From: Oerskovia enterophila
Lineage (GTDB): Bacteria; Actinomycetota; Actinomycetes; Actinomycetales; Cellulomonadaceae
DNA: 39,529 nt
Direction of reading: 5' to 3'
NCBI RefSeq assembly: GCF_001692445.1
Contig: NZ_MAQA01000045.1
Span: forward strand, 1 to 39,529
Within the stretch, counting starts at the first letter, position 1, and each line of letters begins with the position of its first letter. A program made the translations under genes and the position numbers. Of the stretch, positions 7,269 through 25,988 are shown in pieces. The notes below the pieces were generated by a model. The model saw only the letters and a list, made by a program, of their open reading frames with translations, searched no databases and had not been told where the DNA came from.

Positions 7269-8669
<1,401 letters not shown>

Positions 8670-8903: not shown

Positions 8904-9293
8904 ATGGTCAAGGCGACGACGGCCCAGCGGACGACGGCGGGGCGCCGCGAAGCGTGGGGTCGGCTGCGCAAGCCCGCCACGGTGATGATGTATCGCGGTC
9001 GGGTGACCAATTACCTGCGCGAACCTCTCGGTGACACCCTGGTGCGCGAGATCGACACCGCCGTGGTCCGGGACCTGACGCGAGACCTCGTCGCGATCCC
9101 TTCGCGCCTGTGGCCCGGCGCGGCCCACAACGGCATCGCGGGCGACGCGATCGACGTGCTCAAGATGATTCTGCGCGCAGCGGTGCGCGACGGCGTGCTC
9201 GCCACCATGCCCGACGTCGCCACGCCGCAGCGCAAGTCCGTGCGCCACGACCAGGACCACGCGCCCGAGGACGACGTCGCTGCGCCCCCTAGG
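8904..9293 (+). pseudogene. Tyrosine-recombinase (phage integrase) relic, left
   Basis: The frame from ATG 8904 begins MVKATTAQRTTAGRREAWGR, the basic opening of actinobacterial phage/ICE integrases (compare the relic at 24214). It then jumps to MMYRGRVTNYLREPLGDTLVREIDTAVVRDL, which is core-binding SAM-like-domain sequence. The Arm-DNA-binding strands expected between them are missing, so an internal deletion is likely. The frame is cut at about 9293 by an IS481-type end, and no catalytic R-H-R-Y domain remains. It is therefore inactive. The preceding 235 bp hold repeats but no other gene. Confidence 0.75.
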
Positions 9294-9890: not shown

Positions 9891-10092
9891 ACGTGCTCCG
9901 CGCGGACCGGGTGGCTCACGTCAGCGAGAAGACCACACGCTACACCGTCGCAAGGCTCAGGATCGCGCCGGGCTGCTTGCCCCATGCATCGAGCAGTTGC
10001 AGGCAGCCCGAGCCTCCACTGAACCCGGGCACGACAGACGGCTCGTGGAACATCTCACCTCTGAGCGTGTCTGCGTGGTCGGTGGTGATGGT

Positions 10093-10108
10093 TAAGCTGC
10101 ACCACGTG
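10093..10108 (+). promoter_or_regulatory. Leaderless-type -10 box before hsdM
   Basis: TAAGCT (10093-10098) is followed by 7 nt and a GTG at 10106. The same geometry occurs before lpdA and hsdR, and it decides the hsdM start in favour of GTG 10106 over ATG 10088. Confidence 0.55.
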
Positions 10109-12726: not shown

Positions 12727-13643
12727 GTCTGTCGGTCCTGCCGTCGTGGGACCAGTGCATGGTCCCGGTGCTGCGCGCGTTGGGTGATCAGAAGTCCCGT
12801 CAGCGTCGGGAGGTGTTCGAGCTCGCGGCCGATGAGTTGGGCCTGACGTCGGAGCAGCGCCTCGAGGTGGGGACGGGTGGCGAGGCGAAGTACCAGAACC
12901 GGGTCGGGTGGGCGCTGTCCTACCTGGACCGGGTCGGGGCGGTCGAGCGGCCGTCCCGCGGCATCTACCGCATCACGGTGCTCGGCCAGACTCTCGCCGA
13001 GCAGTTCCCGGCCGGCATCACGGAGAAGAAGTTGCGCGAGTACGCGCGCGACGGCGACTCCTGGTGGGTGAGCAAGCCGTCCTCGAAGGCCGTCGTCGAC
13101 GACGTCGTGACGGTCAAGGACTCGGTGCTCGACCCGTACGAGCAGATCGAGGTAGGCGTCGGCCGGATCCACTCCGACGTCGGCGGTGCGCTCATCAAGC
13201 GCCTGCACGCGCAGGATCCCGCGTTCTTTGAGCAGGCCGTGCTCGATCTGCTCATGGCGATGGGCTACGGCGGTGCGGAGGGCAACGCGACGCGGACGCA
13301 GCCCTCGAACGACGGTGGGATCGACGGGGTCATCGATCAAGACGCGCTCGGCCTGGCCCGCATCTATGTGCAGGCGAAGCGGTACACGCCGGACTCGTCG
13401 ATCGACCGTCCGACGATCCAGGCGTTCGTCGGTGCGCTCGCCGACAACTCGGCGAGCCAGGGTGTGTTCATCACGACCGCCCGGTACACGCAGGGCGCCC
13501 GGGCGTTCGCGGAGTCTGTCGCGGCGCGTGTCGTGCTGATCGACGGTGACCGCCTCGCCCGGCTGATGATCAAGTACGGCGTCGGCGTCCAGGTCAAGCA
13601 GACGTACGACGTCGTCGAGATCGACGAGGACTTCTTCGAGTAG
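12723..13643 (+). CDS. mrr: Mrr-family restriction endonuclease
   Basis: A 306-residue protein with an Mrr N-terminal winged-helix domain (about 8-95: VPVLRALGDQKSRQRREVFELAADELGLT) and an Mrr catalytic domain (about 175-295). The PD-(D/E)XK core is visible as GYGGAEGNATRTQPSNDGGIDGVI (Asp201) and YVQAKRY (Gln217, Lys219), followed by FVGALADNSASQGVFITTARYT. Family members cleave DNA, often methylated DNA (type IV restriction). It begins at GTG 12723 within the hsdS stop codon, so it is translated with the type I genes. Its placement between hsdS and hsdR suggests joint function or protection against phages with foreign methylation. Confidence 0.92.
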   Translation: MSLSVLPSWDQCMVPVLRALGDQKSRQRREVFELAADELGLTSEQRLEVGTGGEAKYQNRVGWALSYLDRVGAVERPSRGIYRITVLGQTLAEQFPAGITEKKLREYARDGDSWWVSKPSSKAVVDDVVTVKDSVLDPYEQIEVGVGRIHSDVGGALIKRLHAQDPAFFEQAVLDLLMAMGYGGAEGNATRTQPSNDGGIDGVIDQDALGLARIYVQAKRYTPDSSIDRPTIQAFVGALADNSASQGVFITTARYTQGARAFAESVAARVVLIDGDRLARLMIKYGVGVQVKQTYDVVEIDEDFFE

Positions 13644-13747
13644 GTCGTCGCCGGTCGTGTCGGTGGGTCGTGAGACGGTTGTCGGCTGTGGCGGAAGGAG
13701 CCGCAGGAAAGGCGACGCGACCGGTCTCGCCTGGTGAGGACAACCTC

Positions 13748-14419
13748 ATGTGCACGACGACCTGCAGAACTGCCACGTGGGCCCGGTGCCGTTGCGAGTG
13801 CGACTACGCGAACCACGGGATGAGCATGATGACGCCTCTCGCCGCACCCGTCCCGCGGCGCTTGAGCGCCGGACGTCGAGGAGGCTCGGGTCAGGACCAG
13901 GCAGGCCCGTCTAGCGGCGACCCCGGCGCTCCGCTCTTCGGAGTCGACCTCCTCCACATCGAGTCCTGGCTCGACGACCATCCGGTGTTTCGCGACGAGG
14001 TTGCCCATCTTGTCCACCTCGCGCGGCAGGAGGATGAGTCAGCAGGTGGGGGCACCGAGTCGCACCTCGCCTGCACAGTTCTCGTGAGTGTCGTGATCGC
14101 GCTGGAGAGCGTGGAGCGTCGTCGAGAGCAGGCGGTCGATGGCATCGCTGGAGCACTGTCGGACGTCGCCATGGCGAGGGTCCGGGCATGCCTGGACAGC
14201 AAGTCTGCTGACCAACTCGAGCCGCATGTGGGGGCAGTCGTGGCCCACGTCGTTCATGCCGCAATGCCGGGGTTCGCGCTGGTTGATCCCGAGGTGTTCC
14301 TTGCGGTGCGGCTCGCGGCGCTTCTGGCGTGCCCGGACCCGGACGATCACGCGGAGGTCATCGATCATTGTGTTCACCCGCTCGTGACGACCGTCATCGA
14401 CGGTTCGGGCTTGGTGTGA
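13748..14419 (+). CDS. Unknown protein with Cys-rich N-terminus, inside the type I RM locus
   Basis: A 223-residue ORF. The start ATG 13748 has GGTGAGGA about 8 nt upstream; the longer frame to 13670 has no support. The first 25 residues carry five cysteines and an HG (MCTTTCRTATWARCRCECDY, then ANHG), a pattern that could bind zinc. The rest is mostly helical (HIESWLDDHPVFRDEVAHLVHL; VLVSVVIALESVERRREQAVDG; VGAVVAHVVHAAMPGFALVDP). I do not recognise the family. It lies between mrr and hsdR on the same strand, 104 bp after mrr and 74 bp before the hsdR start, so it may be an accessory or regulator of the locus. Confidence 0.6.
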   Translation: MCTTTCRTATWARCRCECDYANHGMSMMTPLAAPVPRRLSAGRRGGSGQDQAGPSSGDPGAPLFGVDLLHIESWLDDHPVFRDEVAHLVHLARQEDESAGGGTESHLACTVLVSVVIALESVERRREQAVDGIAGALSDVAMARVRACLDSKSADQLEPHVGAVVAHVVHAAMPGFALVDPEVFLAVRLAALLACPDPDDHAEVIDHCVHPLVTTVIDGSGLV

Positions 14420-14480
14420 GGGGAAGCAATCTTCACCCGCCGTCCTCGACCATTTCGCTCATTTCGGCGGGCTTGATCGC

Positions 14481-14496
14481 TAGGGTGTTCACCGTG
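14481..14496 (+). promoter_or_regulatory. Leaderless-type -10 box before hsdR
   Basis: TAGGGT (14481-14486) is followed by 7 nt and GTG 14494. It implies that the endonuclease gene has its own promoter, separate from hsdMS, which could let methylation precede restriction after entry into a new host. Confidence 0.5.
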
Positions 14497-17400
14497 CAGC
14501 CACAGGGACTGACCAGCAACTTCGGCTTCATCAAGGGCGTCTGGCCGACCGTATGGCAGGACTGTGCGCGGGCCGAGTCGTACCTGACGACGGACCCGCG
14601 CTCGGCGTGCTTCTACGCTCGCCGGGCGGTCGAGGTGCTGGTACCCCACCTCTACGATCTACTCGCCCTCCAGGTCCCGTACAAGGCGGATCTGTCCGCG
14701 ATGATCAACGACGCCGCGTTCAAGCAGGTGTCCGGGCACAGCATCGGGACGAAGCTGAACCTCGTCCGCAAGGTCGGCAACGCCGCCGTGCACGAGCCGA
14801 AGCCGATCGCGACGCAGGTCGCGCTCCAGGTGCTCCGCGAACTTCACCACATCGTCGTGTGGGCTGCCTTCCGCTACTCGCCCGCCCGGGATGCCGTGCC
14901 GACGTCGTCGGCGTTCGATCCCACGCTCGCCGCGAAGGCGGCGCCGCTCACGCAGACGGAACTCGTCAAACTCGCCGCGAAGTTCAGGGCGCAGGACGAG
15001 GCCCACGCGAAGGCGCTTGAGGAGAAGGACGAGCTCCTCGCGGCCCATGAGGCCGAGATCGCGGCACTGCGCGAGCAGGTCAAGGCGGCACAGGCGGCGT
15101 CGTCGGCGGAAGACCACCACGACTACACCGAGGCGGACACGCGGCGGCTCTTCATCGACCTGCTGCTTCACGAGGCGGGTTGGCCGCTCGCGGACGCGCG
15201 AGACCGCGAGTACCCGGTCACGGGGATGCCCAACGCCGACGGGACGGGAGTCGTCGACTACGTACTGTGGGGCGCCGACGGTCGGCCGCTCGCGGTCGTC
15301 GAGGCTAAGCGCACGACGAAGAGCCCGCAGGTCGGGCAGCACCAGGCGAAGTTGTACGCCGACTGTCTGGAGGCGCAGTTCGGGCGCCGGCCGGTGGTGT
15401 TCTTCACCAACGGGTACGAGCACTGGATCTGGGACGACGCGGCCGGGTACCCGCCGCGCGAGGTCCAGGGATTCCTCACGCGGGACGAACTGGAGCTGAC
15501 GATCCAGCGTCGTCAGGCACGGGAGGAGCTTGCCAGCGCGCCCGTGAACACCCAGGTGGCGGGGCGCCCGTACCAGGTGCGCGCGATCAAGGCCGTAGGT
15601 GACGCGTTCGACCGCAAGCAGCGTGAGGCGCTGCTGGTCATGGCGACCGGTACAGGCAAGACGCGTACCGTCATCGCGCTGGTGGACCAGCTGATGAAGG
15701 CGGGGTGGGTCAAGCGGGTCCTGTTCCTCGCCGACCGCACGGCCCTGGTGAACCAGGCCGTGAATGCGTTCAAGGCGAACTTGCCCGCGGTCGCGACCGT
15801 CAACCTCGTGACGGAGAAGGTGGCCGAGGGGCGCGTGTTCGCGTCGACGTACCCGTCGATGATGAACCTGATCGACGAGGTCGACGGCGGTGTGCGGCGG
15901 TTCGGGCCGGGGTTCTTCGACCTCGTGGTGATCGACGAGGCGCACCGGTCCGTGTACGCGAAGTACGGCGCGATCTTTGAGTACTTCGACTCGCTGATCG
16001 TCGGCCTGACGGCGACGCCGAAGGACGAGGTCGACCACAACACCTACCGGCTGTTCCACCTCGAGGACGGCGTCCCGACCGACGCCTACGGCCTGGACGA
16101 GGCGATCGCGGACCAGTGGCTCGTCCCGCCCGTCGCTATCTCCGTCGGGACGAAGTTCCTGCGCACCGGCATCAAGTACGCCGAGCTCAGCCAGGCAGAG
16201 AAGGAGGAGTGGGATCTCCTCGACTGGGGTGACGACGGCGCACCCGACGAGGTCGGCGCCGAAGAGCTCAACCGGTTCCTTTTCAACGAGGACACCGTTG
16301 AAAAGGTGCTCTCTGAGCTGATGACGCGCGGCCACAAGGTCGCGGGCGGCGACCGGCTCGCCAAGACCATCGTGTTCGCCAAGAACCAGGAGCACGCCGA
16401 GTTCGTGCAGAAGGTCTTCGATGCGCAGTACCCCGAGCACGCCGGGCACTTCGCGAGCGTGATCACGCACGCCAGCGGCCCGTACGCCCAGAACCTCATC
16501 GACACCTTCTCCCATCCCGAGAAGGCGCCACACATCGCGATCAGCGTCGACATGCTCGACACCGGCATCGACGTGCCCGAGGTCGCGAACCTCGTGTTCT
16601 TCAAGTCGGTGCGGTCCAAGACGAAGTTCTGGCAGATGCTCGGCCGCGGCACCCGCCTGCGGCCCGACCTGTACGGGTCGGGGGAGGACAAGAAGGACTT
16701 CTACGTCTTCGACTTCTGCGGGAACCTCGAGTACTTCAGCCAGGACCTGCCTGGGACCGAGGGGTCCGTGCAGAAGTCGCTGACCCAGCGCATCGTTGAA
16801 GCCCGACTCGGACTGCTCACCGGTCTGGACACCTCCTCGTCGTACCCCGAGCTCCGCGCGGAGACGGCCGCGGCGCTGCACTCCTTTGTGGCCGGGATGA
16901 ACCTCGACAACTTCGTTGTCCGACCCCACCGGAAGCACGTCGAGCGATTCGCTGATGCCGATGCCTGGGCCACGCTGACTAGGGAACAGGCCGAGGACGT
17001 ACTCAACCACCTCGCCGGACTACCGTCGTTGGCCGGGGCGAGCGACAAGGACCTCGACGCCAAGCGGTTCGACCTGCTGATCCTGCGCTGCCAGCTCGCC
17101 ACCCTGGAGGGTGACGTCGTCGCCACGGAGCGGCTGCGCGGGCAGGTCCAGGAGATCGCCGAGGCGCTGCACGCGCTCGCCCACCTGCCAGCTATCGCGA
17201 CGCACGCCGAGCTGATCGAAGCCGTCGCCGGCGAGGAGTGGTGGATTGACGTCACGCTCCCGATGCTCGAGCTCGCACGCCTGCGGCTGCGCGGGCTCGT
17301 GCGGCTCATCGAGAAGATCCGCCGCGACCGCGTCTACAGCGACTTCGAGGACACCCTCGGCGAGTCCACAGTCGTCGAACTGCCCCAGGTCACGCCCGGC

Positions 17401-17880
17401 ACCAACTGGGAGAGGTTCCGGGCGAAGGCTCATGCCTACCTCGGCGACCACATCGACGACCTCATCCTGCAGAAGGTGCGACGCAACAAGCAGCTCACCG
17501 AGACCGACCTCGATGCCCTTCAGACGATGCTCCTCGACAGCGGCGCCGGACAGGTCGCAGACATCGCCTGGGCCGCCGAGAAGGAACACGGTCTCGGACT
17601 CTTCATCCGTCGGCTCGTCGGGCTCGACCGGTCTGCTGTCGAGGAGGTGTTCGCGCACTACCTCGACGGCGCACTCTTCAACGTCAGCCAGGTCCGCTTC
17701 GTGCGCATGATCGTCGACGAGCTCACCGCCAACGGCGTCATGGAACCGACCCGGCTCTTCGAGGCTCCGTACGTCGACCACGCGCCGACCGGGCCGATTG
17801 ACCTGTTCCCAGCGACCGACGTGCGCGTGATCGTCGACATCCTCGGAACCGTGCGCCGGCACGCGCAGGCGGTTTCGTAG
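14494..17880 (+). CDS. hsdR: Type I restriction endonuclease subunit R
   Basis: A 1128-residue HsdR. The N-terminal DUF4145-like helical region (about 1-130: QGLTSNFGFIKGVWPTVWQD; ACFYARRAVEVLVPHLYDLL; KVGNAAVHEPKPI) is followed by a short coiled coil. The HsdR_N nuclease domain has VVDYVLWGADGRPLAVVEAK, where Asp and Glu-x-Lys form the PD-(D/E)XK site. The SF2 motor has MATGTGKT (Lys389), VIDEAHRS (Asp481-His484), GLTATPK and MLGRGTRLRPDL. The C-terminus resembles the EcoEI R-subunit type. All motor and nuclease motifs are present, so the restriction complex is probably functional. The frame extends further upstream, but the leaderless box and homologous start favour GTG 14494. Confidence 0.95.
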   Translation: MQPQGLTSNFGFIKGVWPTVWQDCARAESYLTTDPRSACFYARRAVEVLVPHLYDLLALQVPYKADLSAMINDAAFKQVSGHSIGTKLNLVRKVGNAAVHEPKPIATQVALQVLRELHHIVVWAAFRYSPARDAVPTSSAFDPTLAAKAAPLTQTELVKLAAKFRAQDEAHAKALEEKDELLAAHEAEIAALREQVKAAQAASSAEDHHDYTEADTRRLFIDLLLHEAGWPLADARDREYPVTGMPNADGTGVVDYVLWGADGRPLAVVEAKRTTKSPQVGQHQAKLYADCLEAQFGRRPVVFFTNGYEHWIWDDAAGYPPREVQGFLTRDELELTIQRRQAREELASAPVNTQVAGRPYQVRAIKAVGDAFDRKQREALLVMATGTGKTRTVIALVDQLMKAGWVKRVLFLADRTALVNQAVNAFKANLPAVATVNLVTEKVAEGRVFASTYPSMMNLIDEVDGGVRRFGPGFFDLVVIDEAHRSVYAKYGAIFEYFDSLIVGLTATPKDEVDHNTYRLFHLEDGVPTDAYGLDEAIADQWLVPPVAISVGTKFLRTGIKYAELSQAEKEEWDLLDWGDDGAPDEVGAEELNRFLFNEDTVEKVLSELMTRGHKVAGGDRLAKTIVFAKNQEHAEFVQKVFDAQYPEHAGHFASVITHASGPYAQNLIDTFSHPEKAPHIAISVDMLDTGIDVPEVANLVFFKSVRSKTKFWQMLGRGTRLRPDLYGSGEDKKDFYVFDFCGNLEYFSQDLPGTEGSVQKSLTQRIVEARLGLLTGLDTSSSYPELRAETAAALHSFVAGMNLDNFVVRPHRKHVERFADADAWATLTREQAEDVLNHLAGLPSLAGASDKDLDAKRFDLLILRCQLATLEGDVVATERLRGQVQEIAEALHALAHLPAIATHAELIEAVAGEEWWIDVTLPMLELARLRLRGLVRLIEKIRRDRVYSDFEDTLGESTVVELPQVTPGTNWERFRAKAHAYLGDHIDDLILQKVRRNKQLTETDLDALQTMLLDSGAGQVADIAWAAEKEHGLGLFIRRLVGLDRSAVEEVFAHYLDGALFNVSQVRFVRMIVDELTANGVMEPTRLFEAPYVDHAPTGPIDLFPATDVRVIVDILGTVRRHAQAVS

Positions 17881-18204
17881 CGTGATGTCGATGTTGAAGG
17901 GGGCACCGCGAGATCGGACTCGTCCCACCGGCTGCGTTCGAAGACCACCACTACCGTCACAGCCCCGCGCCGACTACCGTCGACGCGTCAGTTCCGAGTC
18001 TTCACTGAACCCGTCACGAGACAATCGCCTCAGATCCGGTGTCCGGGAAACCGGGTCAAGCTCCCAAAGACGCCGCTTCGAATGCGGCGGTCCGCACTTC
18101 GCAAGCAGTACGCGACGGCGTCTCAGGTCGTGCCGACCGATGGCCAGACATGAGTGAACTCATCGACCGCGGAACTCGCCGCGTGACTGGTGAAGGGTTC
18201 GCCT
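17881..18204. other. Intergenic gap between hsdR and the three-gene cassette
   Basis: About 390 bp separate hsdR from the next gene. I see no convincing ORF and no long terminator. A short GCCGC/GCGGC hairpin lies near 18073-18089. The last 65 bp carry the promoter and ribosome-binding site of the following gene. The gap shows that the cassette is transcribed independently of hsdR. Confidence 0.6.
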
Positions 18205-18264
18205 TTGCGCTGTCGGGAGACCGTGGTATCTTGTTCGGTTCGTTTGAGACCAGAAGGGAGGAAA
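18205..18264 (+). promoter_or_regulatory. Promoter and ribosome-binding site of the three-gene cassette
   Basis: TTGCGC (18205-18210), a 16-bp spacer and TATCTT (18227-18232) form a reasonable sigma-A-type promoter. AAGGGAGGAAA (18254-18264) is a strong ribosome-binding site 4 nt before ATG 18269. This is one of the clearest promoter/RBS pairs in the island. Confidence 0.65.
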
Positions 18265-18268
18265 GCCG

Positions 18269-19546
18269 ATGACAAGGGAAGCATCGATGCGCGATCAAGT
18301 GCGCGCCAGACTTCGCGCTGATGGGTTCGACCTTGTGCAACTCGAGGCCCCGCTTGACCCGGCGTCGAAGGTTCGCCCTGACGTAGTGGCTTGGGCTGCA
18401 GATAACAGCGGCGAACTCGTTCCGTGGGCAGTCGTCGAGATCAAGTCTGGCCAGTTCAAGTCTCCAGAGCTTGCCCTCCCCGCCCTGGTTCGAAGCCGCG
18501 ATCTGCTCGGCACGATCGACCACTACGCAGTAGTCAACGGGCAGTGGTTCAAGGCAGACCGTAGTGTCCGCTCTCTTGCGCCGGTGGACGGGCCGACGCC
18601 GCCGCAGCACGGCCCGCGAGGTCTGCTTGTCGACGAAGGCCTTGCCACGTCACTGCTGCTCAAGTCGTTGTGGCGCCACGTCGACATGGAGCGCTCTCGC
18701 GGTATTCGGGCTGACTACTTCTCCCCGCCTGCCGGCCCCCTTGCCGAGACGAACGCCCCTGGTATCGAGACAACCGACGGCTTCGTGCCGGTGCGCCACG
18801 ACGTGCTCTGGCGGGCGCGTCGCCGCGCGCTGATCGAGTTCGCGAGCAATACAGGTAACGGTGAGGCTCTAGCCTCTAGCCCGACGATTGCCCGGGCTAT
18901 GTCTGCCCTTGCGGGTCCGGTCGTCGCTGGCACAGTCCTGGATCCGTTCTGCGGAACGGGTTCCTTCCTCTGGGCTGTTATGGACCGTGCATTGCACGAC
19001 GCGCCGGTGGAGTTCGTCGGCGTCGAGGTGAACGACCGCATGGCGGACCTGGCGGGCACGATCGGTCGGACGGCGTCGCTGCCGACGAAGATCGTCACAG
19101 GTGACGCCTTCGAGGTTGAACTTCCGAAAGCAGACGTCGTGTTGGCTGCGCCGCCGCTCGGCATTCGCATGCGCGAACCTCGGGTCCTCCTCGACGGTTC
19201 GACAACGACCGACATGGCAGTGGCGGCGGTCGATCTTGCACTGCAGCAGCTGCGGCCGGGTGGTCGCGCCGTGCTCCACGTTGCCGCCGGGTTCACCTTC
19301 CAGCATGGCGCCGAGCAGTACCGCGAGTATCTCGCCGAGGAGCACCGCGTCGCTGCGCTCATCGGCCTCCCTAGCGGCGCGGTGCCAGGCACTGGTGTGC
19401 GCTCTGTGCTCGTCGTGATCGAGCGGGGCGAACCAGGCGAGACTTTCGTCGCGCAAGTTGGGGAGGACTGGGAGACCCAGCTGGCCACAAACGGCGCAGC
19501 GATGACCGCCGTGCTTGCCCACATCGACGGCGATCAGAGCAGGTGA
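18269..19546 (+). CDS. PD-(D/E)XK-like / methyltransferase-like fusion with altered catalytic motif
   Basis: A 425-residue protein. Residues 1-100 hold a nuclease-like signature: Asp38 in KVRPDVVAW and Glu57-x-Lys59 in WAVVEIKSG. Residues about 150-390 form an N6-adenine methylase Rossmann domain like HsdM: YFSPP-like start, SAM motif VLDPFCGTGSF (Asp225), VGVEVNDRMADLAGT, GDAFEVELP, and later LRPGGRAVLHVAAGF and LIGLPSGAVPGTGVRSVLVV. At the catalytic position, where HsdM has NPP(F/Y), this protein has APPL (294-297), so methylation of adenine is doubtful although SAM could still bind. The helical HsdM_N domain is absent. It is translationally coupled to an HsdS-like gene. I infer a DNA-sensing or cleaving role, not classical modification. 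Confidence 0.8.
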   Translation: MTREASMRDQVRARLRADGFDLVQLEAPLDPASKVRPDVVAWAADNSGELVPWAVVEIKSGQFKSPELALPALVRSRDLLGTIDHYAVVNGQWFKADRSVRSLAPVDGPTPPQHGPRGLLVDEGLATSLLLKSLWRHVDMERSRGIRADYFSPPAGPLAETNAPGIETTDGFVPVRHDVLWRARRRALIEFASNTGNGEALASSPTIARAMSALAGPVVAGTVLDPFCGTGSFLWAVMDRALHDAPVEFVGVEVNDRMADLAGTIGRTASLPTKIVTGDAFEVELPKADVVLAAPPLGIRMREPRVLLDGSTTTDMAVAAVDLALQQLRPGGRAVLHVAAGFTFQHGAEQYREYLAEEHRVAALIGLPSGAVPGTGVRSVLVVIERGEPGETFVAQVGEDWETQLATNGAAMTAVLAHIDGDQSR

Positions 19547-20715
19547 CCGTCGTGGTTACGTCCAACGTTCTCGACCTCCGCCGTCACGCGAACTGGGAAC
19601 CCTCCCGCCTTCTCGCGCAAGCATTCGAGTGGCCGATAGACGCGCCAACGATTGCGCTTCGGGATCTTGTGTCGCGCGTGGCCCCGTCCTCGTTCGCGGA
19701 CGCGGGCACGCCCGTCGTCACGCCTGCCGGCATCGACCCGATCCGCGGCGGTGTACGCCGTCGCAGCCGGAAGTATCAAGGGGCTGCCTATCAGGTCGGT
19801 GCTGAGTTACGCCCGGGTGACCTTCTCGTTCCGCGCAGCCCATCGGGCCTTGTCCTTCTCGTCTCGGACGTCATGATGGGTGCCCTTGTCTCCTCCACGT
19901 TCTACGCGCTTCGCCCACGAAATGAGTCTTATGCGGCGTGGCTGTGGGGCCTGCTGAACTCTCGATCAGGTCTTGAACTTCGACAAGGCCTCGCCGCAGG
20001 TTCGACAACAATGCTGTTGGCCCCCGGTGACCTTCTCGACATCGCGGTCCCGCTGCCTACGTTCGTCCATCAGCACGCGCTGACCACGGCGCTTCTGAGC
20101 GAGGCCTCGACGACCCACCTCGACGAAGAGGAGGCTCCAGAGACCTGGTGGCGCATCGCAGACCTTCGGGGGAGCGAGTGGCGCTTCATGCTGGCCAGCC
20201 CGCGCCCCGACCTCCTTCGTGAAGGGATCCCGCTCAAGGACTACTGCAGCGAGATCGCGAAGGGACGCCCAATTCTGGCTGTCGCCGTCGAGACGCAAGA
20301 GGCCGGGTTCCTGCCCGTGGCCGATATCCGCATGCTCTCGGGCTATCCGCCCCGGCGTTGGGTGCCTGCGACGGCCGAGCGGTTGACGCGCGTCCGCCCA
20401 GGCGACCTATGTGTCGCGGCGCCCGGCGAGCGGCCACATGCGGCTGTAGTCCAGACCGAAGCCGTGGCTGATCCGAACGTCTACGTGTTACGCCTGCGCA
20501 GGCCCGCCCTGGGAGCGGCGCTCGCTGAGTACCTCAACGGGCGGGAGGGGTTTGCTCTGCGCAGAATGCTGGTCAGCGGATCCTTCATACCCAACCTTCG
20601 CCGACGCGACCTCGAAAGCCTCCCCGTCCGCCCGGAGGCGCTCGACCAGCCCGCGCCTGACAAGCCCGTCATCCCCCTTGCCGATCGCCTGGAGCGCCTG
20701 CTGTGGCAGCGCTGA
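19543..20715 (+). CDS. HsdS-like DNA specificity protein of the cassette
   Basis: A 390-residue protein starting at GTG 19543, overlapping the previous stop (GTGA). It has two similar halves, as in type I specificity subunits. The first half has ALRDLVSRVAPSS, ELRPGDLLVPRSPSG, STFYALRPRNESYAAWLWGLLNS and DLLDIAVPLPTFVHQHAL. The second has IPLKDYCSEIAKGRPI, RVRPGDLCVAAPGER, NVYVLRLRRPALGAALAEYL and LVSGSFIPNLRRRDLESLPV. Each half resembles a target-recognition domain followed by a short contact helix. The long coiled-coil spacers of true HsdS are reduced. It probably supplies sequence recognition to the methyltransferase-like partner. The stop codon lies inside the next gene's start region. 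Confidence 0.8.
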   Translation: MTVVVTSNVLDLRRHANWEPSRLLAQAFEWPIDAPTIALRDLVSRVAPSSFADAGTPVVTPAGIDPIRGGVRRRSRKYQGAAYQVGAELRPGDLLVPRSPSGLVLLVSDVMMGALVSSTFYALRPRNESYAAWLWGLLNSRSGLELRQGLAAGSTTMLLAPGDLLDIAVPLPTFVHQHALTTALLSEASTTHLDEEEAPETWWRIADLRGSEWRFMLASPRPDLLREGIPLKDYCSEIAKGRPILAVAVETQEAGFLPVADIRMLSGYPPRRWVPATAERLTRVRPGDLCVAAPGERPHAAVVQTEAVADPNVYVLRLRRPALGAALAEYLNGREGFALRRMLVSGSFIPNLRRRDLESLPVRPEALDQPAPDKPVIPLADRLERLLWQR

Positions 20716-21626
20716 AGTGCGAGTTCGCCGCGATCGTTTACGCCGAGCTGTACCGGCTCCTCGCCAGTGACAAGCGCCTGGTCGACTCGCTCGCGTACCG
20801 GCTCGACGAGATCAGGTACGACGTCGACTGGTTCGATGAGGCGATCGAGGCTTACGAAGGCAAGTGGACCTCGGACCTGCAGTACATGACGCACGACAGC
20901 ATCAGTGACTTCACTCTGACCCAGCCGGACCACGCGGTGCTCGCGACCTGGATCCTGGCTGGCCTTCGAAACACCGGCCAGTGTTACGACATCTCGAGTG
21001 AACTGAGCCAGCGCGTCCTGGAGCGCGCGCAGCGCGACATACCCGGCCTGGCCGTTCCGCTACCGAGCGCGCTCAGCCCCGTGATTTACGGTTGGACCCT
21101 AGGCTGCGTCGTCGGCTCAGACGATCTGCCGGCAATGCCAGCTGTTCTCCCCCCTGAGGAGAACGTGCAGCACGCCTTTCTCGGCTTCATGGAGCACGTC
21201 CTCGTCCTCCAGTCGATGGCGACGCCTTGGCCGGAGATGATGTCGACAGCCACTTACTGGCGCGGCTACGGCATCGCGGAAGGGCTCCTGCCGGAGCACG
21301 GGAACGGCGGCCACGCACTGGCCCAACTGAAGAACGAGGCCAGCCGTTCGATGGTGCCTGCGATGTACGCGACCTTGGAGCGCTACTTCAAGCCCTTCAA
21401 CCAGCGACGTCAATCGGTTTCCCATGTTGCACAGGACGACTCTCGGCCGTCGTTCGTCGAGGTGGCGGAGACGATTCGGGATTGGCCGGATCTACGGATG
21501 GCTGTCGTCGGCCTGACCCAGTTCGTCTACCAAGAGGTCTCCAAGGGGCTTCAAGACACGCCTCCTCGCTCCATTCAGCCGGGCGTGTGGGACAACCTCA
21601 TCCACGAGATCCGCACCGACTGGTAG
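20703..21626 (+). CDS. Helical protein with a HEPN-type R-x4-H motif, third gene of the cassette
   Basis: A 307-residue, mostly helical protein. It starts at GTG 20703, 13 bp inside the previous gene. The N-terminal third (VYAELYRLLASDKRLVDSLAYRLDEIR; EAIEAYEGKW) and middle part match nothing I recognise. Residues 225-280 read LERYFKPFNQRRQSVSH followed by a long helix pair. Arg236-x4-His241 fits the R-phi-x3-H catalytic signature of HEPN ribonucleases and has the usual placement just before the final helices (FVEVAETIRDW; VVGLTQFVYQEV). If it is a HEPN RNase, it could be a toxic effector. The motif is short, so the assignment is tentative. An IS3-family element is inserted 86 bp after the stop. 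Confidence 0.7.
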   Translation: MAALKCEFAAIVYAELYRLLASDKRLVDSLAYRLDEIRYDVDWFDEAIEAYEGKWTSDLQYMTHDSISDFTLTQPDHAVLATWILAGLRNTGQCYDISSELSQRVLERAQRDIPGLAVPLPSALSPVIYGWTLGCVVGSDDLPAMPAVLPPEENVQHAFLGFMEHVLVLQSMATPWPEMMSTATYWRGYGIAEGLLPEHGNGGHALAQLKNEASRSMVPAMYATLERYFKPFNQRRQSVSHVAQDDSRPSFVEVAETIRDWPDLRMAVVGLTQFVYQEVSKGLQDTPPRSIQPGVWDNLIHEIRTDW

Positions 21627-21751
21627 CGCGCTGGCCACGCGAGGGTGTGAATGAATCGCACTGGATCTCGTTCCTATGCGTTTCTGAACCGCCCTGGGTC
21701 TGATGGAGGCTCTGGTGTGCCCCGGCTTCCGTGGAGTCGGGTTGCTGGAAT

Positions 21752-22620
21752 CTAGGCCACGGTGATCGTTGCTGTGTTCTCGAACTCTACGGGTGTCAGC
21801 CAGCCGAGGGCGGAGTGCCGGCGCTGGCGGTTGTGGAAGATCTCGAGGTACTCGAAGATCGCGTTCGCCAGTTCCAGGCGTGTACGCCATCGACGCCGGT
21901 CCAGGAGCTCGACCTGCATGCGCGACCAGAAGCTCTCGATGACGGCGTTGTCGTAGCAGTCGCCGATCGATCCCATCGAGGGCACCAGGCCAGACTCCTT
22001 GGCCCGGGTGGTGAAGGCCCAGGATCCGAACTGGACTCCGTGATCCGAGTGAATGATCGTCCCAGACGGTGTCCGGCGGTTCTCGATGGCCATGCCGAGC
22101 GCGTTCGTTACCAGGGCTGCCGTGGGCGAGGAGTCGATCGACCACCCGACCACGCGCCGGGAGCAGACGTCGAGCACGACGGTGCAGTACACCTTGCCTT
22201 CTCGGGTGGGGCGCTCGGTGATGTCGGTGACCCACGGCTCGTTCACGCCTTCGCGGGCAAACTGCCGATCCACCAGGCCGGTGGAGATCAGGTCGGGGCG
22301 AGCGCGACGCCATCTCGGGCGCCCCCCGACGCCTTTGAGGCCAGCACGCGCCATCAGCATCTCCACGGTGCCGTGCCACGCCTGGATGTCGTGGCCCTTG
22401 GTCAGCTCGGCGTGCACGCGGCGGGCGCCGTAGACGCCCCGGGAGGCGGTGTGGATGGTGCGGATGGTCTCGGTCAGCAGCGCATGCCGCACGTGTCGGG
22501 CCGAGGGTGCCCGCACCAGCGAGGCGTATTAGCCGGACTCCGAGCAGCCGAGGGCCCGCACTGCGGGTTGGACCGGCAGCCCTTCACCGGCCATCACCGC
22601 GATCGCTTCGAACCGCCTTT
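21752..22620 (-). pseudogene. IS3-family transposase OrfB, interrupted by a nonsense codon
   Basis: The rve/DDE catalytic ORF is reached by frameshift from OrfA. It reads AIAVMAGEGLPVQPAVRALG, SESG, stop, YASLVRAPS and then the catalytic core: WVTDITERPTREGKVYCTVVLD (Asp), GTIIHSDHGVQFGS (Asp), GDCYDNAVIESFWSRMQVEL (Glu), and RRHSALGWLTPVEFE near the end. The TAA at 22530-22532 replaces what is almost certainly a tyrosine codon (the family has GYYA). The DDE residues are intact, but full-length transposase cannot be made without read-through or re-initiation, so the element is probably immobile unless helped in trans. Confidence 0.85.
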
Positions 22621-22899
22621 TGGGGGCACCACCTTCCCCAGCAGCTCGCTCGCGCGCCGGTGGATCGCCAGCTCGGTCTCCAACTCGACGATCCGCTTCC
22701 TGGCCGCGGTCAGCTCGGCCTTCTCCACTCTGGTCAGGCCCGGCTCGAGGCCCTTGTCGATGCGGTCCTGGCGCCGCCAGGCGTAGATCGTCTGGTCGCT
22801 GATCTCCAGATCGCGCGCCACGTCCGCGACCTTGCGGCCCGACTCGAGCAGGTCCAACACCTTGCGCCGGAACTCCGGCGGATAACCACGACGTCCCAC
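22594..22899 (-). CDS. IS3-family transposase OrfA
   Basis: A 101-residue helix-turn-helix protein starting at GTG 22899 (VGRRGYPPEFRRKVLDLLES) with AGGAAAG 7 nt upstream. The DNA-binding part (GRKVADVARDLEISDQTIYAWRRQ) is followed by a leucine-zipper-like stretch (LTRVEKAELTAARKRIVELETELAIHRRASELL). It ends with PKGGSKRSR next to a CCCCCAAAAGG run, a likely site for -1 frameshifting into OrfB, as is normal in the family. Confidence 0.88.
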   Translation of the reverse strand: MGRRGYPPEFRRKVLDLLESGRKVADVARDLEISDQTIYAWRRQDRIDKGLEPGLTRVEKAELTAARKRIVELETELAIHRRASELLGKVVPPKGGSKRSR

Positions 22900-22985
22900 G
22901 AGGCCTTTCCTACAGGGGCAGGTGGCACAAGAATCCAGTAATCCGACTCCACGGAACGCGGGACACACCACTCCCGCGCCTCCGA

Positions 22986-23096
22986 TTACCCCTTGCCCAG
23001 GGTCGATCCAGCCTTCGACTTGGCAGACTTACTTGAGGAGCTGCTTCCAAGCGTCTTGCCGGCCCTGGAGAGAGCGGACTTCGAGGGCTTCGCCAT
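22986..23096 (-). CDS. 36-residue Lys/Ser/Ala-rich basic peptide
   Basis: The ORF starts at ATG 23096 with an excellent ribosome-binding site, GGAGGTGA, 5 nt upstream, and stops at 22986, 16 bp from the IS3 right end. The sequence is strongly basic, glycine/serine-rich and composed of two copies of a unit: SKSALSRAGKTLGS, then SKSAKSKAGSTLGKG. It has no hydrophobic segment. The good RBS and the internal duplication argue for a real gene despite the size. It could be a nucleic-acid-binding or antitoxin-like peptide; no function is claimed. The IS insertion lies just beyond its 3' end. Confidence 0.55.
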   Translation of the reverse strand: MAKPSKSALSRAGKTLGSSSSSKSAKSKAGSTLGKG

Positions 23097-23099
23097 GAC

Positions 23100-23619
23100 A
23101 TCACCTCCAACCTGGATGAAGTCCAACACGAGGATCTGACACGAGGCACCTCCCCGGGGCGTGACGGGACCTCACGGCTGAGACCTCACTGAGCGGGGCG
23201 CGCCTGCTCTGGATTGCCGACTCCGACATCCGCGCTTGTCCTTGAGCCGGAGAACCCGTCCATTGCGACCTTGTTGACGCCGATCTCGTCGACGCCGTGT
23301 CGGCAGCCGAGTTCGGCGCGGTGGAGGGGGCCGTCGCCCAGCTGCCTCGGGCTTCCCGTAGAGGACCTGTGATCCGGGAACGACGCGCACGCCGATATCG
23401 GCAGGGCGTCTTGCGGGCCCGCGGTGACGTTGGATGTGGAGGGCTCCCTGGAGGGCGGGTCCTTCGTCTCACAGGAGCGAGCTCGCGGAGGAGCGTCGGG
23501 GCGGTCCGCGCCTTGGTTGCTGGTGCATCTGCTGGCTTACGGGTTCGAGTACGGGCGGACGGGGTGAACGGGAACGGCGTGTTTCTGCGGTTCGGGGGAC
23601 GGGTTCGGTGGTCTGTTTG
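23100..23619. other. Gap without recognisable genes
   Basis: About 520 bp between the small basic ORF and the tRNA fragment. Open frames exist on both strands but none has an RBS or family-like sequence. The stretch may be decayed mobile-element DNA. Confidence 0.5.
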
Positions 23620-23664
23620 CCTTCACACCGAAGAGGTCACTTGTTCGATCCCAGTATCGCCCAC
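23620..23664 (+). other. 3' half of a tRNA-Val(CAC) gene, likely attachment-site scar
   Basis: The sequence from CCTTCACACCGAAG through AGAGGTCACTTGTTCGAT to CCCAGTATCGCCCACC matches an anticodon loop (TTCACAC, anticodon CAC), 3' anticodon strand CGAAG, variable loop, T-arm and the 3' acceptor strand ATCGCCC. No 5' half is present: the bases before it cannot pair with CGAAG, and no GGGCGAT occurs about 70 bp upstream. The T-stem has one mismatch (ACTTG against CCAGT). This is what integration into the 3' end of a tRNA gene leaves at one element boundary. A terminator hairpin follows directly, as behind a real tRNA gene. Confidence 0.75.
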
Positions 23665-23674
23665 CGTAGAAATG

Positions 23675-23714
23675 CCTCCTGACCAGCAGAAATGCTGGGT
23701 CAGGAGGCCTTTCG
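23675..23714 (+). terminator. Hairpin terminator behind the tRNA fragment
   Basis: CCTCCTGACCAGCA pairs with TGCTGGGTCAGGAGG (one bulged G) around a GAAA loop, followed by CCTTTCGCTTT. Its position suggests that it once terminated the intact tRNA transcript. Confidence 0.75.
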
Positions 23715-23748
23715 CTTTGCCGGTTCGAGCACCGCTGGTTTATCTGGC

Positions 23749-23885
23749 TCATGGGACATCCGGTAGGGGCGTGATGTCGAGTCCGCTGCCGGTGAGGAGC
23801 ATCCGGAGGCGGTAGTTGTCGCGGTCGCGGTAGCCGCGGGCGAGTCGGCGGTGGAGTTCGATGATGCCGTTCATGGTCTCTGTGT
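23749..23885 (-). pseudogene. ISL3-type transposase C-terminal fragment
   Basis: The minus-strand frame contains NDTETMNGIIELHRRLARGY followed by RDRDNYRLRMLL. This fits the end of ISL3-family transposases (T-x-x-N-G-x-I-E...G-x-R-x-x-x-N-Y-R-x-R-x-L-L). It ends at 23749. The remaining 300 or more residues of the transposase are absent, and the upstream part of the frame is unrelated. It is a dead fragment. Confidence 0.7.
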
Positions 23886-23948
23886 CGTTAATCCAATACA
23901 GAACCCAGTAGGCCGGTCGCGGTAGGAGACATGTGCTGCCTGAGAGGG

Positions 23949-23965
23949 GCACGCAGGGGGCACGA
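23949..23965. repeat. Island-end repeat, second copy
   Basis: GCACGCAGGGGGCACGA differs by one base from the copy at 24183-24199 and is related to 8813-8834. It lies between the tRNA scar and the second integrase relic. The DNA from 23886 to 24080 otherwise shows no gene. Confidence 0.45.
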
Positions 23966-24082
23966 CTCCCAGGAGCGCTGGTGAGGATCCGCGGAATGTC
24001 AACGATTCTGGGACTTCGATCCTAGAGGATCAACTTCTAGTAAGTAGGTCAAATCGGACACTGTCCGATCGCCTGGTCAGAG

Positions 24083-24120
24083 GCCCGGGTCTGCGAGTTT
24101 TCGCAGCTCCGGGCTTTTTT
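24083..24120 (+). terminator. Rho-independent terminator with T-tract
   Basis: GCCCGGGTCTGCGA pairs with TCGCAGCTCCGGGC (12 of 14 positions) around GTTT and is followed by six T residues. It is the only terminator in the window with a classical U-tract. No complete gene lies directly upstream, so its original gene has been lost or replaced. Confidence 0.8.
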
Positions 24121-24182
24121 CCTGTCTCGGGGAGGCATGGACACCTACAGACAGGAGGACCCCCGAAGTGCCGAGAGAAGTT

Positions 24183-24199
24183 GCACACAGGGGGCACGA
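24183..24199. repeat. Island-end repeat, third copy
   Basis: GCACACAGGGGGCACGA lies 15 bp before the second integrase relic. See 8813-8834 and 23949-23965 for related copies. Confidence 0.45.
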
Positions 24200-24213
24200 A
24201 CTAGGAGGGCGAG

Positions 24214-24360
24214 GTGGCGGAGAAGGGTGCTGCGCGGCAACGCCGCGAGTCGTGGGGGCGGTTGCGTCAACTGCCGTCGAAGCGGTGGCAGGCGCGGTAC
24301 ATAGGCCCCGACGGGAAAGTGCACTCGCCGCGCACGGAGGGGGACATGCCGCTGACGCGA
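24214..24360 (+). pseudogene. Tyrosine-recombinase (phage integrase) relic, right
   Basis: GTG 24214 opens MAEKGAARQRRESWGRLRQL followed by PSKRWQARYIGPDGKVHSPR. This is the Arm-DNA-binding N-terminus of actinobacterial phage/ICE integrases, with a good AGGAGG (24204-24209) before it. Homology is lost after about residue 49, where IS5-type DNA begins, and the core-binding and catalytic domains are missing. It resembles the relic at 8904 (GRREAWGRLRK against RQRRESWGRLRQ), so the two may be relatives that entered separately. Confidence 0.8.
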
Positions 24361-24401
24361 GATTGTCCCGTATCGGGTGGTTCGGGTGGGGTCATGGTGG
24401 T

Positions 24402-24965
24402 GTGAGTGTGATCTCGGCGTCGGACGTGTCTTGGATCGAGCGCTTCACGGGGGTGGCGCCGGCGACGTTCTCTCGGCTGGTCGACCAGCTGCGCGAGGCC
24501 GGGGTGGACACGGGTCGGGGCCGGTCGTGGAAGCTGGGGCTGGCTGACCGAGTGCTGCTGGTCGCGGCGCACTGGCGCACGAACCTGACCTGCGCCAGCT
24601 CGCGCCCTTGTTCGAGGTCTCGAAGTCGGCCGCGGGCCGCATGATCACCGACCTGGCACCCCGTCTTGCGCTCACGCACCGAGCCAAGCGCTGCAGTGAC
24701 GCCGTGTGTTGATCGTGGACGGCCCCCCTGTCCCGACCCGCGACCGCACGATCGCTGCATCGTCCAAGAACTACCGGTACTCCACCAACCACCAGGTCGT
24801 CATCGACGCCGACACCCGCCTGGTCGTTGCGGTCGTCCGCTGCCGGGCAACCGCAACGACTGCAAGGCATGGACCGAGTCCGTGACAGCCGACCAGGTCA
24901 CCGGGTGCACCGTGATCGCCGACGGCGGCTACCAGGGCACCAGGCTGCTCATCCCGCACCGCAGT
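24402..24965 (+). pseudogene. IS5-family (DDE_Tnp_4) transposase remnant with frameshifts
   Basis: Joined across three frames the sequence reads VISASDVSWIERFTGVAPAT, LADRVLLVAAHWRTNLT, LRQLAPLFEVSKSAAGRMI, VLIVDGPPVPTRDRTIAASS, KNYRYSTNHQVVIDADTRLV, GNRNDCKAWTESV and TVIADGGYQGTRLLIPHR. This is the helix-turn-helix plus DDE order of the IS427-type IS5 transposases. Indels near 24588, 24712 and 24838 break the frame and the C-terminal end is gone. It was inserted into, or recombined with, the integrase relic upstream and the PUA-like ORF downstream. Confidence 0.82.
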
Positions 24966-25313
24966 CGCATCGCGTGGTACACAAGCAGGTCGGGTGCCGA
25001 TCACGTGAGCGCGGTGGTCGGAGTTTCACGTCTCGTGAGCGTCGACGTCGATTCGCCGGAGCGTCTGCACCGACGCAACAGTCAGCTTGGCGTATGGGAT
25101 CTTTCCGACGTCCGGCAGAGTGCACGGGAGGGCCGCGCCTCGGCTCTGCGGTTCGCGGACACCGAGTTGTTCGTCCGCCCAGTGCGCTTCGAGCGACTCA
25201 AGGAGCGTGCCGGAGGATCTTCGAAGCGGCTCGGCACGACACAGTCTCCGACCGTGATCGACTCGCAGGTGTTCAGCTGGCTCTACCGGGAAGACACCCG
25301 TCGTGGAGGCTGA
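24966..25313 (+). pseudogene. C-terminal fragment of a PUA/EVE-like protein
   Basis: The frame after the transposase remnant reads SRIAWYTSRSGADHVSAVVG, VSRLVSVDVDSPERLHRRNS, QLGVWDLSDV and ALRFADTELFVRPVRFERL, and ends at 25313. Strand patterns such as xxWYxSR, SAVVGVSRL and a mid helix LHRR...LGVW are like the PUA/EVE-type folds. A complete start is missing because the IS5 relic occupies the 5' side. It lies just upstream of an ASCH-domain frame, itself a PUA-superfamily member, so the two probably formed a pair. The family call is tentative. Confidence 0.5.
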
Positions 25314-25325
25314 GTGGCGGGGCGT

Positions 25326-25737
25326 CATGCCTGAGCATCCGACCGCGTTTCGCCGAAGCGATCCTTCGAGGCGACAAGACGGTTGAGCTCCGCCGTACCC
25401 GGATTCACGCCCACGCCGGGACGCTCGTTGTCCTGTACTCCAGCAGCCCAACCCGTTCTGTCCTTGGCACTGCTGTCCTCGACGAGATCATCGAGGCGCA
25501 CCCGACGGAGCTTTGGCCACGAGTTAAGGACGACGCCGGAGTGACGCAGATCGAGTTCGACCAGTACTACGAGGATGCGTCACGTGGATACGGCCTGCGG
25601 CTCAGGGATGCCGTCCCGCTCGCAACTCCCACGCCCTTCACAGTATCCGGGCCAATGCGGGACTCGAGCCACCGCAGTCCTTCTGCTACGTCAATCGCTT
25701 TCAGGTCGACCAGCTCAAGGCTGCGCTGGCGAACTAG
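25326..25737 (+). pseudogene. ASCH-domain (PUA-superfamily) protein, frameshifted
   Basis: The frame has LSIRPRFAEAILRGDKTVEL, RRTRIHAHAGTLVVLYSSSP and SVLGTAVLDEIIEAHPTELW, the classic ASCH start with its S-I-R-P and G-x-K-x-x-E-x-R motifs, used for RNA or modified-nucleotide binding. Near 25634 the reading shifts by one base. The next frame continues LHSIRANAGLEPPQSFCYVN and RFQVDQLKAALAN before TAG 25735-25737. The start is also odd: ATG 25326 would give M-L-S-I-R-P only if one C of the following CC were absent. Either the gene is decayed or the assembly has indels. Confidence 0.7.
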
Positions 25738-25905
25738 GGGAGGGTACGCGTCACGTCCTCGAGCCGGTGGGCGGCGATAGTCAGCTCGTCGTTCGTGAAG
25801 CCGTCGAAAAGGCGGCGGTTCAAATCGGCCAGCGTGGCGTCACGGCGATCGTGGTCACGAAGTCATCGACGGGCTCGAGGGTGTCGGTCGCGGCCTGTTT
25901 GGTAG
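25734..25905 (-). pseudogene. Possible MarR-type regulator C-terminal remnant
   Basis: On the minus strand a frame reads DHDRRDATLADLNRRLFDGF followed by TNDELTIAAHRLEDVTRTLP and a stop at 25734, like the final helices of MarR regulators. A second frame just upstream (AATDTLEPVDDFV) continues the pattern, implying a frameshift. The DNA-binding part is absent. Its stop overlaps the ASCH stop, so the two genes were convergent. The match is short. Confidence 0.4.
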
Positions 25906-25988
25906 CGATGCCCGTCGAAGGGCTGGGGTGTGCTCCGCCGTCGGGCACCTTGGGGAGGCCGCGCCTGCGGCCCGAGGGCCCACGGGGC

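Follow-up and report, generated by a model that had tools for sequence, protein, structure and literature searches.

A conserved three-gene cassette in Oerskovia enterophila with methyltransferase-like, specificity-like and R-x4-H proteins: a possible new type of antiviral suicide defence

Three overlapping genes (g1, g2 and g3) in a 39,529-nucleotide stretch of the Oerskovia enterophila genome, contig NZ_MAQA01000045.1 (the whole stretch is called the window hereafter), form a conserved cassette that may represent a novel form of antiviral defence by suicide. The reading we prefer, which falls only a little short of being probable, is that the cassette is a self-contained anti-phage system from a BcgI-like (RM)2S enzyme without modification, in which an M/S-like DNA sensor-nuclease is combined with a probable HEPN RNase. 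A role in defence is well supported by the genomic context, and the mechanism is one that we infer. The overlapping genes described in an earlier sequence-only reading were confirmed as open frames of 425, 390 and 307 aa, with overlaps of 4 bp for g1/g2 (19543-19546) and 13 bp for g2/g3 (20703-20715) (Table 1). The "one good promoter" of that reading was not recovered, and the sigma-70-type scan of 17800-21900 gave 0 sites, including upstream of g1.

Table 1. Features of the cassette and its surroundings (positions in the window)
Feature	Position	Strand	Description
Ribosome-binding-like stretch, AG-rich	18255..18268	+	directly 5' of the g1 ATG; read from sequence
g1	18269..19546	+	425 aa; putative PD-(D/E)XK nuclease domain fused to HsdM-like Rossmann domain
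g2	19543..20715	+	390 aa; HsdS-like specificity subunit, two halves
g3	20703..21626	+	307 aa; unmatched in the libraries searched; R236-x4-H241, invariant, close to the C-terminus and of the type seen in HEPN ribonucleases
Type I RM locus (HsdM, HsdS, Mrr-like, HsdR)	10088..17880	+	just upstream of cassette; separate system
HsdM of the type I RM locus	10088-11578	+	
HsdS of the type I RM locus	11575-12726	+	
Mrr-like gene of the type I RM locus	12723-13643	+	
HsdR of the type I RM locus	14485-17880	+	
Strain-specific island holding the cassette	8824..25925	.	~17 kb

Eight intact cassettes were collected, from the window, Nocardioides, Aeromicrobium, Planotetraspora, Mycobacterium and three Streptomyces, and gene order and strand were kept in all eight; the three-gene order, which had been put forward for checking across actinobacterial genomes, is thus conserved among distantly related actinobacteria. 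The genome scan showed g1-g2-g3 in order at 6/6 non-remnant loci, and in 392 genomes of the genus Streptomyces all three full-length g3 matches lay within g1-g2-g3, in order, one of the three being the S. albogriseolus locus L009 again. No full-length g1 or g3 without both partners was found among the loci searched. The g2/g3 overlap was 13 bp in seven intact cassettes and 10 bp in one. For three pairs compared, dN/dS was 0.17-0.31 for each of g1, g2 and g3, demonstrating that all three genes are under purifying selection, and these values together with the kept order and strand show that the linkage is beyond chance.

At each of four remnant loci, the remaining parts of the cassette were also gone or reduced. 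Such co-decay, along with the tight coupling and the location in a mobile island, would be expected of a toxin-antitoxin-like addiction module of the island, with g3 as the toxin and g1+g2 as the neutraliser; however, this module would need no conservation of the g1 nuclease triad described below, and it would be unusual for a neutraliser to match an RM enzyme in size and domain composition, and we consider the module improbable. Most searches of viral contigs returned no relatives of the cassette, and one returned 14 generic MTases with 21-38% identity, of which 3 carry NPP[FY] and 11 have no such motif within the range read. On plasmids, g1 found one generic MTase only, g2 one generic S subunit only, and g3 nothing, and phages, which were searched with g2 and g3 only, contained no relatives of either.

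The cassette does lie beside a type I RM locus in a mobile island, as had been claimed: the island is missing between the same flanks in three of the four congeners compared, where both flanks are 2-3.6 kb apart, and the fourth stretch holds one flank only. Clear defence genes were present within 10 kb of six of the eight intact cassettes, based on neighbours chosen by eye without a background control, which supports the suggested occurrence in defence islands at these loci. At two less fully scanned loci, 0/1 neighbour (L022) and 2/7 neighbours (L023; a generic mad2 match and a 170-aa GajA/OLD-like piece) matched defence models, and neither lies in a clear defence island.

An adjoining HsdR was recognised in only three of the eight intact loci, with the type I RM locus directly upstream in the window and L011, and with one AAA gene intervening in L008. 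This arrangement is reminiscent of the PrrC RNase, which pairs with a type Ic RM system according to the available part of PMC3710099, and it would fit a PrrC-like guard in which the g3 RNase is silenced by the neighbouring type I RM enzyme and freed on its inactivation, with g1+g2 serving as adaptors. However, HsdM_N was found in six of nine cassette genomes and not in Planotetraspora, S. silvae and genome G876 (HsdMs lacking the domain would escape this search), and the three neighbouring HsdRs fall best in three different PADLOC families. With the window HsdR as query, no match in L008-L014 had an E-value below 0.001, nor was there a notable match in L007. The cassette resembles the PrrC/RloC anticodon nucleases in that an R-x4-H protein is coupled to RM-type proteins, but g3 has no ABC ATPase match and its partner genes belong to the cassette itself, and we regard the guard as very unlikely.

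The g1 protein was claimed to combine an RPD...EIK nuclease-like N-terminus with an HsdM-like Rossmann domain, and both were present, the PD-(D/E)XK-like domain at approximately aa 1-150 and the Rossmann domain at approximately aa 175-400. The latter was matched by Pfam N6_Mtase (aa 190-389, E 3.2e-12) and, in a profile search of PDB, by M subunit 7vru (E 6.8e-15), and the MTase part also matched phage families in PHROGs, two of them below E 1e-8. Residues D38, E57 and K59 of the nuclease-like motif and the SAM motif DPFCGTG (D225-G231) were invariant in all eight proteins, while motif IV was A-P-P in 8/8 (A294-P-P in the window), replacing NPP[FY], and was followed by F in only 3/8 and otherwise by L, V or M. 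Unlike g1, the neighbouring HsdMs have NPP[FY] in 3/3. In the available part of PMC3874165, NPP(Y/F/W) is given as the catalytic site of gamma-MTases, and with this methylation motif lost no methylation by known chemistry would be expected of g1. In addition, the HsdM "AGEF" stretch is not retained in g1, and the PF12161 (HsdM_N) search of the window's genome gave a single match, located in the neighbouring HsdM and not in g1. The possibility that g1 is an ordinary active HsdM, which would have counted against the sequence-only reading, is thus contradicted by motif IV and by the nuclease-like N-terminal motif.

For the N-terminus, only 0.4% of column shuffles of the g1 alignment produced a D-x(n)-[DE]-x-K pattern. 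When compared with the nuclease core of the window HsdR, E-x-K fell in register with a score of 26.7 versus 17.0 for the best of 40 shuffles, the hhalign probability being only 21%; for the L008 HsdR the hhalign score was 25.6 versus 23.1 for shuffles, with a probability of 8%. The alignment was not seen by hhalign with the L011 HsdR or Mrr, and the profile search of PDB gave only chance matches to unrelated proteins. Based on the motif and a low-probability profile alignment, we assign the N-terminus to a putative PD-(D/E)XK-type nuclease.

The resemblance of g2 to a specificity subunit with two halves held up, with matches to PADLOC Specificity_I (E 2.3e-9) and, by profile search, to PDB S subunits (5ybb_D, E 3.9e-11), and no match in PHROGs. 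The halves were not hypervariable among the cassette pairs compared. In BcgI/BsaXI-type enzymes (type IIB, multimeric type IIG), an N-terminal PD-(D/E)XK nuclease is fused to a gamma-type MTase and a two-half S is separate, as described in the available parts of PMC3874165 and PMC11997821. This two-gene RM+S layout is shared by g1+g2, and RM.BsaXI (E 0.0012) and S.BsaXI (E 0.57) were among their weak PDB profile matches. Given the invariant nuclease and SAM motifs and the altered motif IV, g1 and g2 therefore look like a BcgI-type RM+S pair in which methylation was lost and the nuclease kept. The differences are the third gene, the lost MTase motif, and the size, as RM.BsaXI has 916 aa, and g1 would leave little room for the multi-helical part. 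In terms of type IIB membership, the RM fusion (nuclease by motif and low-probability alignment) and the separate S are present, but APP[LFVM] stands in 8/8 in place of the NPP(Y/F/W) of an active gamma-MTase. The shared layout, the intact SAM motif and the conservation of the cassette would also agree with a functional type IIB RM enzyme of the BcgI kind, with methylation through an unusual APP[FLVM] motif and with an accessory third gene. This seems a poor prospect, as Ala replaces, in 8/8, the asparagine needed to hold the target amino group, F rarely follows PP, "AGEF" is not kept, g1 is short and without HsdM_N, and the g2 halves are not hypervariable. The cassette is likewise related to type I RM systems, through the similarity of the g1 Rossmann domain to M subunits, of g2 to S subunits, and of the g1 nuclease core to the N-terminus of the window HsdR, but it has no helicase/motor subunit and no HsdR in the conserved unit, the nuclease is fused to M, and g1 lacks both the N-terminal helical domain and an active motif IV.

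The R-x4-H claimed for g3 was present as R236-x4-H241, with both residues invariant in 8/8 and R-N-x3-H in 7/8, although about 9% of column shuffles of the alignment yield an invariant R-x4-6-H by chance. No HEPN or other match was obtained in Pfam, NCBIfam, PADLOC or PHROGs, and the profile search of PDB returned nothing. Against a 14-sequence HEPN set, hhalign peaked on the motif with 19.1 versus 15.1 for the best of 60 shuffles, at a probability of 2%; against the HEPN profile the score was 19.7, and unrelated g1 windows used as a stricter control reached 20.1. A first HEPN_Apea set, of poor and partly wrong-strand sequences, gave 11.8, under the best of 60 shuffles at 17.0. From the motif we consider g3 a probable HEPN RNase. 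If g3 were instead structural or regulatory and without RNase activity, as its missing library match may indicate, the cassette could be a type IV-like restriction system, in which g1+g2 cut incoming DNA with foreign modification and the g1 nuclease is the main effector. The invariant nuclease triad beside a lost methylation motif speaks for this, as an active cutter unable to methylate must spare host DNA, like modification-dependent enzymes. However, the conserved R-N-x3-H and R-x4-H motifs argue against it, and S-like modules classically read unmodified bases, and we find it unlikely, if less so than the other alternatives.

In PADLOC, the MTase part of g1 scored best with the mad2 model (E 2.1e-24). 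In NCBIfam, g2 matched MADS5 weakly, and the scores fall far under the cut-offs for MAD2 (23.4 bits against 720) and MAD5 (27.6 bits against 400). The reading of the cassette as MADS was rejected because the mad2 model is unspecific, matching MTases in 178 of 197 genomes; of 12 mad2-model loci fetched, 11 have NPPF and the twelfth has no readable motif. HEPN domains are co-encoded with MTases in defence loci (available parts of PMC3710099 and PMC12839542), as in HEPN-linked RM and BREX-related (DUF499/Hma) systems. The BREX-related systems carry an ATPase and a helicase along with an active N6-MTase, in contrast to the cassette, which has none of the three. The claim that no named system has this composition stands insofar as none was found in library or literature searches, including the available part of the DefensePredictor paper, but the HEPN-restriction theme (PMC3710099) and the g1+g2 layout (PMC3874165, PMC11997821) were already known from what is available of those sources.

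In the preferred reading of a self-contained anti-phage system, g1 and g2 would form an M/S-like clamp on DNA, in which g2 reads a fixed target, SAM bound by the g1 Rossmann domain plays a structural or allosteric part without methylation, and the N-terminal PD-(D/E)XK domain may cut DNA. The g3 protein, presumably produced through translational coupling to g2, would be kept quiet in or beside the g1-g2 complex and released once a phage disturbs the clamp or the clamp encounters invading DNA, after which its RNase activity would stop translation and hence phage growth. As the cassette would be unable to mark host DNA, distinction of self from non-self should rest on something besides its own methylation, and candidates are foreign DNA modification, an infection-made DNA state, or a target missing from the host. 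A methylation-free immune sensor of this type, in which a dead SAM-binding M domain and a fixed-target S recognise invading DNA and license a HEPN RNase as well as a DNA nuclease, is an idea we offer tentatively and with somewhat less confidence than the anti-phage reading as a whole. The earlier proposal, that M- and S-like proteins sense DNA, perhaps its methylation state, and trigger an RNase or a nuclease, is strengthened on the side of g1, the conserved order and the defence setting at six of eight loci, and weakened by the missing HEPN library match of g3.

If the proposal is true, an RM-like M+S sensor unable to methylate poses the question of how host DNA is spared, and an RM-derived DNA reader would be wired to an RNase suicide effector inside one operon. 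The available part of PMC3710099 put forward such a link for HEPN genes that neighbour RM loci, and the cassette would then be a conserved three-gene version of it. The cassette family is small and can be recognised by sequence.

The sequence-only reading had placed three overlapping genes here behind one good promoter, and the genes themselves were recovered as open frames, g1 and g2 overlapping by 4 bp and g2 and g3 by 13 bp. The promoter was not confirmed: a sigma-70-type scan returned 0 sites, and the g1 start is preceded by an AG-rich, ribosome-binding-like stretch. Across eight intact cassettes, with starts as chosen by us, the g2/g3 overlap was 13 bp in seven and 10 bp in the Mycobacterium locus (L011), and the g1/g2 overlap was 4 bp in six, with a gap of 2 or 6 bp in L008 and L012.

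A g1 search of 394 genomes of the class (E 1e-20) gave one genome beyond the window's own. For g3, neither the order (297 genomes) nor, with the g3 profile, the phylum (396 genomes) yielded a match outside the window's own genome. Two short g1 patterns, run once over an 84,980-species collection, found seven loci, a lower bound given that no more than these two patterns were used, and six of the seven (L008-L013) carry g1, g2 and g3 in order on one strand. The g3 profile search of 392 genomes of the genus of L009, with five candidates scored per genome, gave six matches: three full length (in L009's genome, L022 and L023), all with g1 and g2 adjoining, and three remnants (L024-L026); in L026 a g1 piece is followed at once by a g3 piece, as if the genes of the family were lost together. 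In total there were eight intact cassettes (the window, L008-L012, L022 and L023), one broken and four remnants, and among all loci recovered no full-length g1 or g3 lacked a partner gene. The intact cassettes had pairwise identities of 43-97% for g1, 43-94% for g2 and 36-94% for g3, and dN/dS was 0.17-0.31 for every one of the three genes in the three pairs compared.

Features of the window and of the other cassette loci, with their neighbours
Locus	Feature	Positions (strand)	Description
Window	island	~8824-25925	neighbours: type I RM, Mrr-like
Window	integrase fragment	8904-9308	left island edge; N-terminal, by reading only
Window	Mrr-like gene	12723-13643	between hsdS and hsdR; Mrr_cat (E 6.6e-36), Mrr_N
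Window	g1	18269-19546 (+)	425 aa
Window	g2	19543-20715 (+)	390 aa
Window	g3	20703-21626 (+)	307 aa
Window	two transposase genes	21752-22971 (-)	just downstream of g3; integrase core rve, HTH_Tnp_1
L008, Nocardioides	cassette in order, one strand		neighbours: type I RM, AAA_15 ATPase, PDC-S53, ZacC
L009, Streptomyces albogriseolus	cassette in order, one strand		neighbours: TmtA downstream, DUF4062 upstream (no PADLOC match), HsdM_N-bearing frame
L009	DUF4062 gene	8484-9608	upstream of cassette; Pfam match
L010, Aeromicrobium	cassette in order, one strand		three further neighbours unmatched
L010	QatA, QatB-D (by reading only), ApeA_NTD1 protein	3608-9833	directly upstream of cassette
L011, Mycobacterium	cassette in order, one strand		neighbours: type I RM
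L012, Planotetraspora	cassette in order, one strand		neighbours: MzaB-E, LeoA, LeoBC
L013, S. silvae	cassette in order, one strand		g1 and g3 broken
L013	DUF4062 gene	8460-9584	upstream of cassette
L014	remnant		67-aa g1 piece only
L022	DUF4062 gene	8968-10092	upstream of cassette; the one neighbour scanned at this locus was unmatched
L023	170-aa gene	11222-11734 (-)	directly upstream of cassette; resembles GajA C-terminal part (E 1e-15)
L026	remnant	~9236-9532	g1 piece directly followed by g3 piece

Residues 173-391 of g1 resemble M-subunit structures (7vru, E 6.8e-15), and motif I, DPFCGTG, is unchanged in all eight cassettes. Motif IV reads A-P-P-[LFVM] in all eight, in contrast to the NPPF or NPPY of the adjoining HsdMs (3/3); loci found with the PADLOC model mad2 carry NPPF in 11 of 12, the twelfth having no readable motif. 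PMC3874165 describes how NPP(Y/F/W) works in gamma-MTases: its N binds the amino group to be methylated, and its aromatic residue stacks against the target base. The 'AGEF' stretch, assigned to M1-type catalytic pockets in PMC9613975, is not retained in g1 either. Since motif IV and 'AGEF' are altered and motif I is invariant, DNA methylation by g1 appears very unlikely, and SAM binding is probably retained. At E 1e-20 the mad2 model (PDLC04134) picks up MTases in 178 of 197 genomes, and every one of 14 control genomes gives a match too, so that a mad2 match alone tells little.

In the N-terminus of g1, D38, E57 and K59 are invariant, a pattern whose like appeared in 0.4% of column shuffles. 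When the profile of this region is compared with the window's HsdR, which itself has an N-terminal DUF4145 domain, the alignment falls on the D...E-x-K core and scores 26.7 in comparison to 17.0 for the best of 40 shuffles (hhalign probability 21%); the core of the L008 HsdR aligns likewise at 25.6 (best shuffle 23.1, probability 8%). No such alignment was obtained with the HsdR of L011 or with Mrr, and PDB sequences gave only chance-like matches to the domain.

For g2, matches came from S-subunit models and structures and none from Pfam or PHROGs. Over seven sequences (all but L022), mean identity per 30-aa block was 36-58%, and neither half stood out as hypervariable. Its dN/dS is similar to that of g1 and g3, and its dN, compared pair by pair on rounded values, is slightly above that of g1 in three of three pairs and of g3 in two. 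Because classical S subunits change specificity fast and the halves of g2 are not hypervariable, g2 would seem to recognise a target that stays the same.

No match to g3 was found in NCBIfam, PADLOC, PDB sequences or, for the window's g3, PHROGs, and Pfam gave one chance-level match on six members (DUF6285, E 0.14). R236-x4-H241 is invariant in all eight, as R-N-x3-H in seven and R-Q in the window, and an invariant R-x4-6-H alone turned up in 9% of shuffles. Against 14 HEPN_Apea-type sequences the g3 profile peaks on the motif at 19.1 (best of 60 shuffles 15.1), with g1 windows as a control reaching 20.1 in comparison to 19.7 for g3, so that the comparison did not set g3 apart from the control. 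We lean modestly towards g3 being a HEPN protein.

The layout of g1 and g2 is that of the BcgI-type (RM)2S enzymes, as described in PMC3874165 and PMC11997821, with the nuclease motif still in place but methylation probably lost. As an RM enzyme that cuts without marking would kill its host, recognition must be gated otherwise; a foreign modification, a DNA state made by infection, or a target that the host lacks could be the gate. The likely effector would be g3, coupled to g2 by the overlap, which as an RNase would bring infected cells to a halt. The complex, the trigger, cleavage and cell arrest are all inferred here. HEPN genes beside RM loci have long been known, with at least 16 clades in PMC3710099. 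According to the text of that paper, HEPN domains associated with RM are fused to nucleases, helicases and ATPases and not to methylases; its table nonetheless records methylases as occasional fusion partners in the HEPN-M family. The three-gene unit is not described in the accessible parts of PMC12839542, PMC3710099, PMC13092281, PMC9613975, PMC11997821 or PMC3874165, and no description was found in the literature searched, which mostly excluded subscription papers and preprints.

The window island is absent between the same flanks in three of four congeners, the fourth stretch holding one flank only. Neighbours for scanning were picked by eye, with no background set for comparison; of the 30 scanned, 18 match a PADLOC model at E 1e-5, and some of these matches are generic. 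Clear defence neighbours were found at six of the eight intact loci, as L022 was unmatched and the two matches among seven scanned neighbours at L023 (generic mad2 and a GajA/OLD-like piece) were not counted as defence. Six of nine cassette genomes gave an HsdM_N match, and none came from Planotetraspora, S. silvae or a further genome, G876, so that the cassette seems independent of a type I RM system with this domain. The DUF4062 gene, assigned by a Pfam match of the L009 copy and common by sequence to L022 and L009, is adjoined by a divergent 150-aa gene in three Streptomyces loci (L009, L022 and L013) and is possibly a further cassette partner in this lineage. The ApeA_NTD1 protein of the Aeromicrobium locus carries RNDLAH near its C-terminus.
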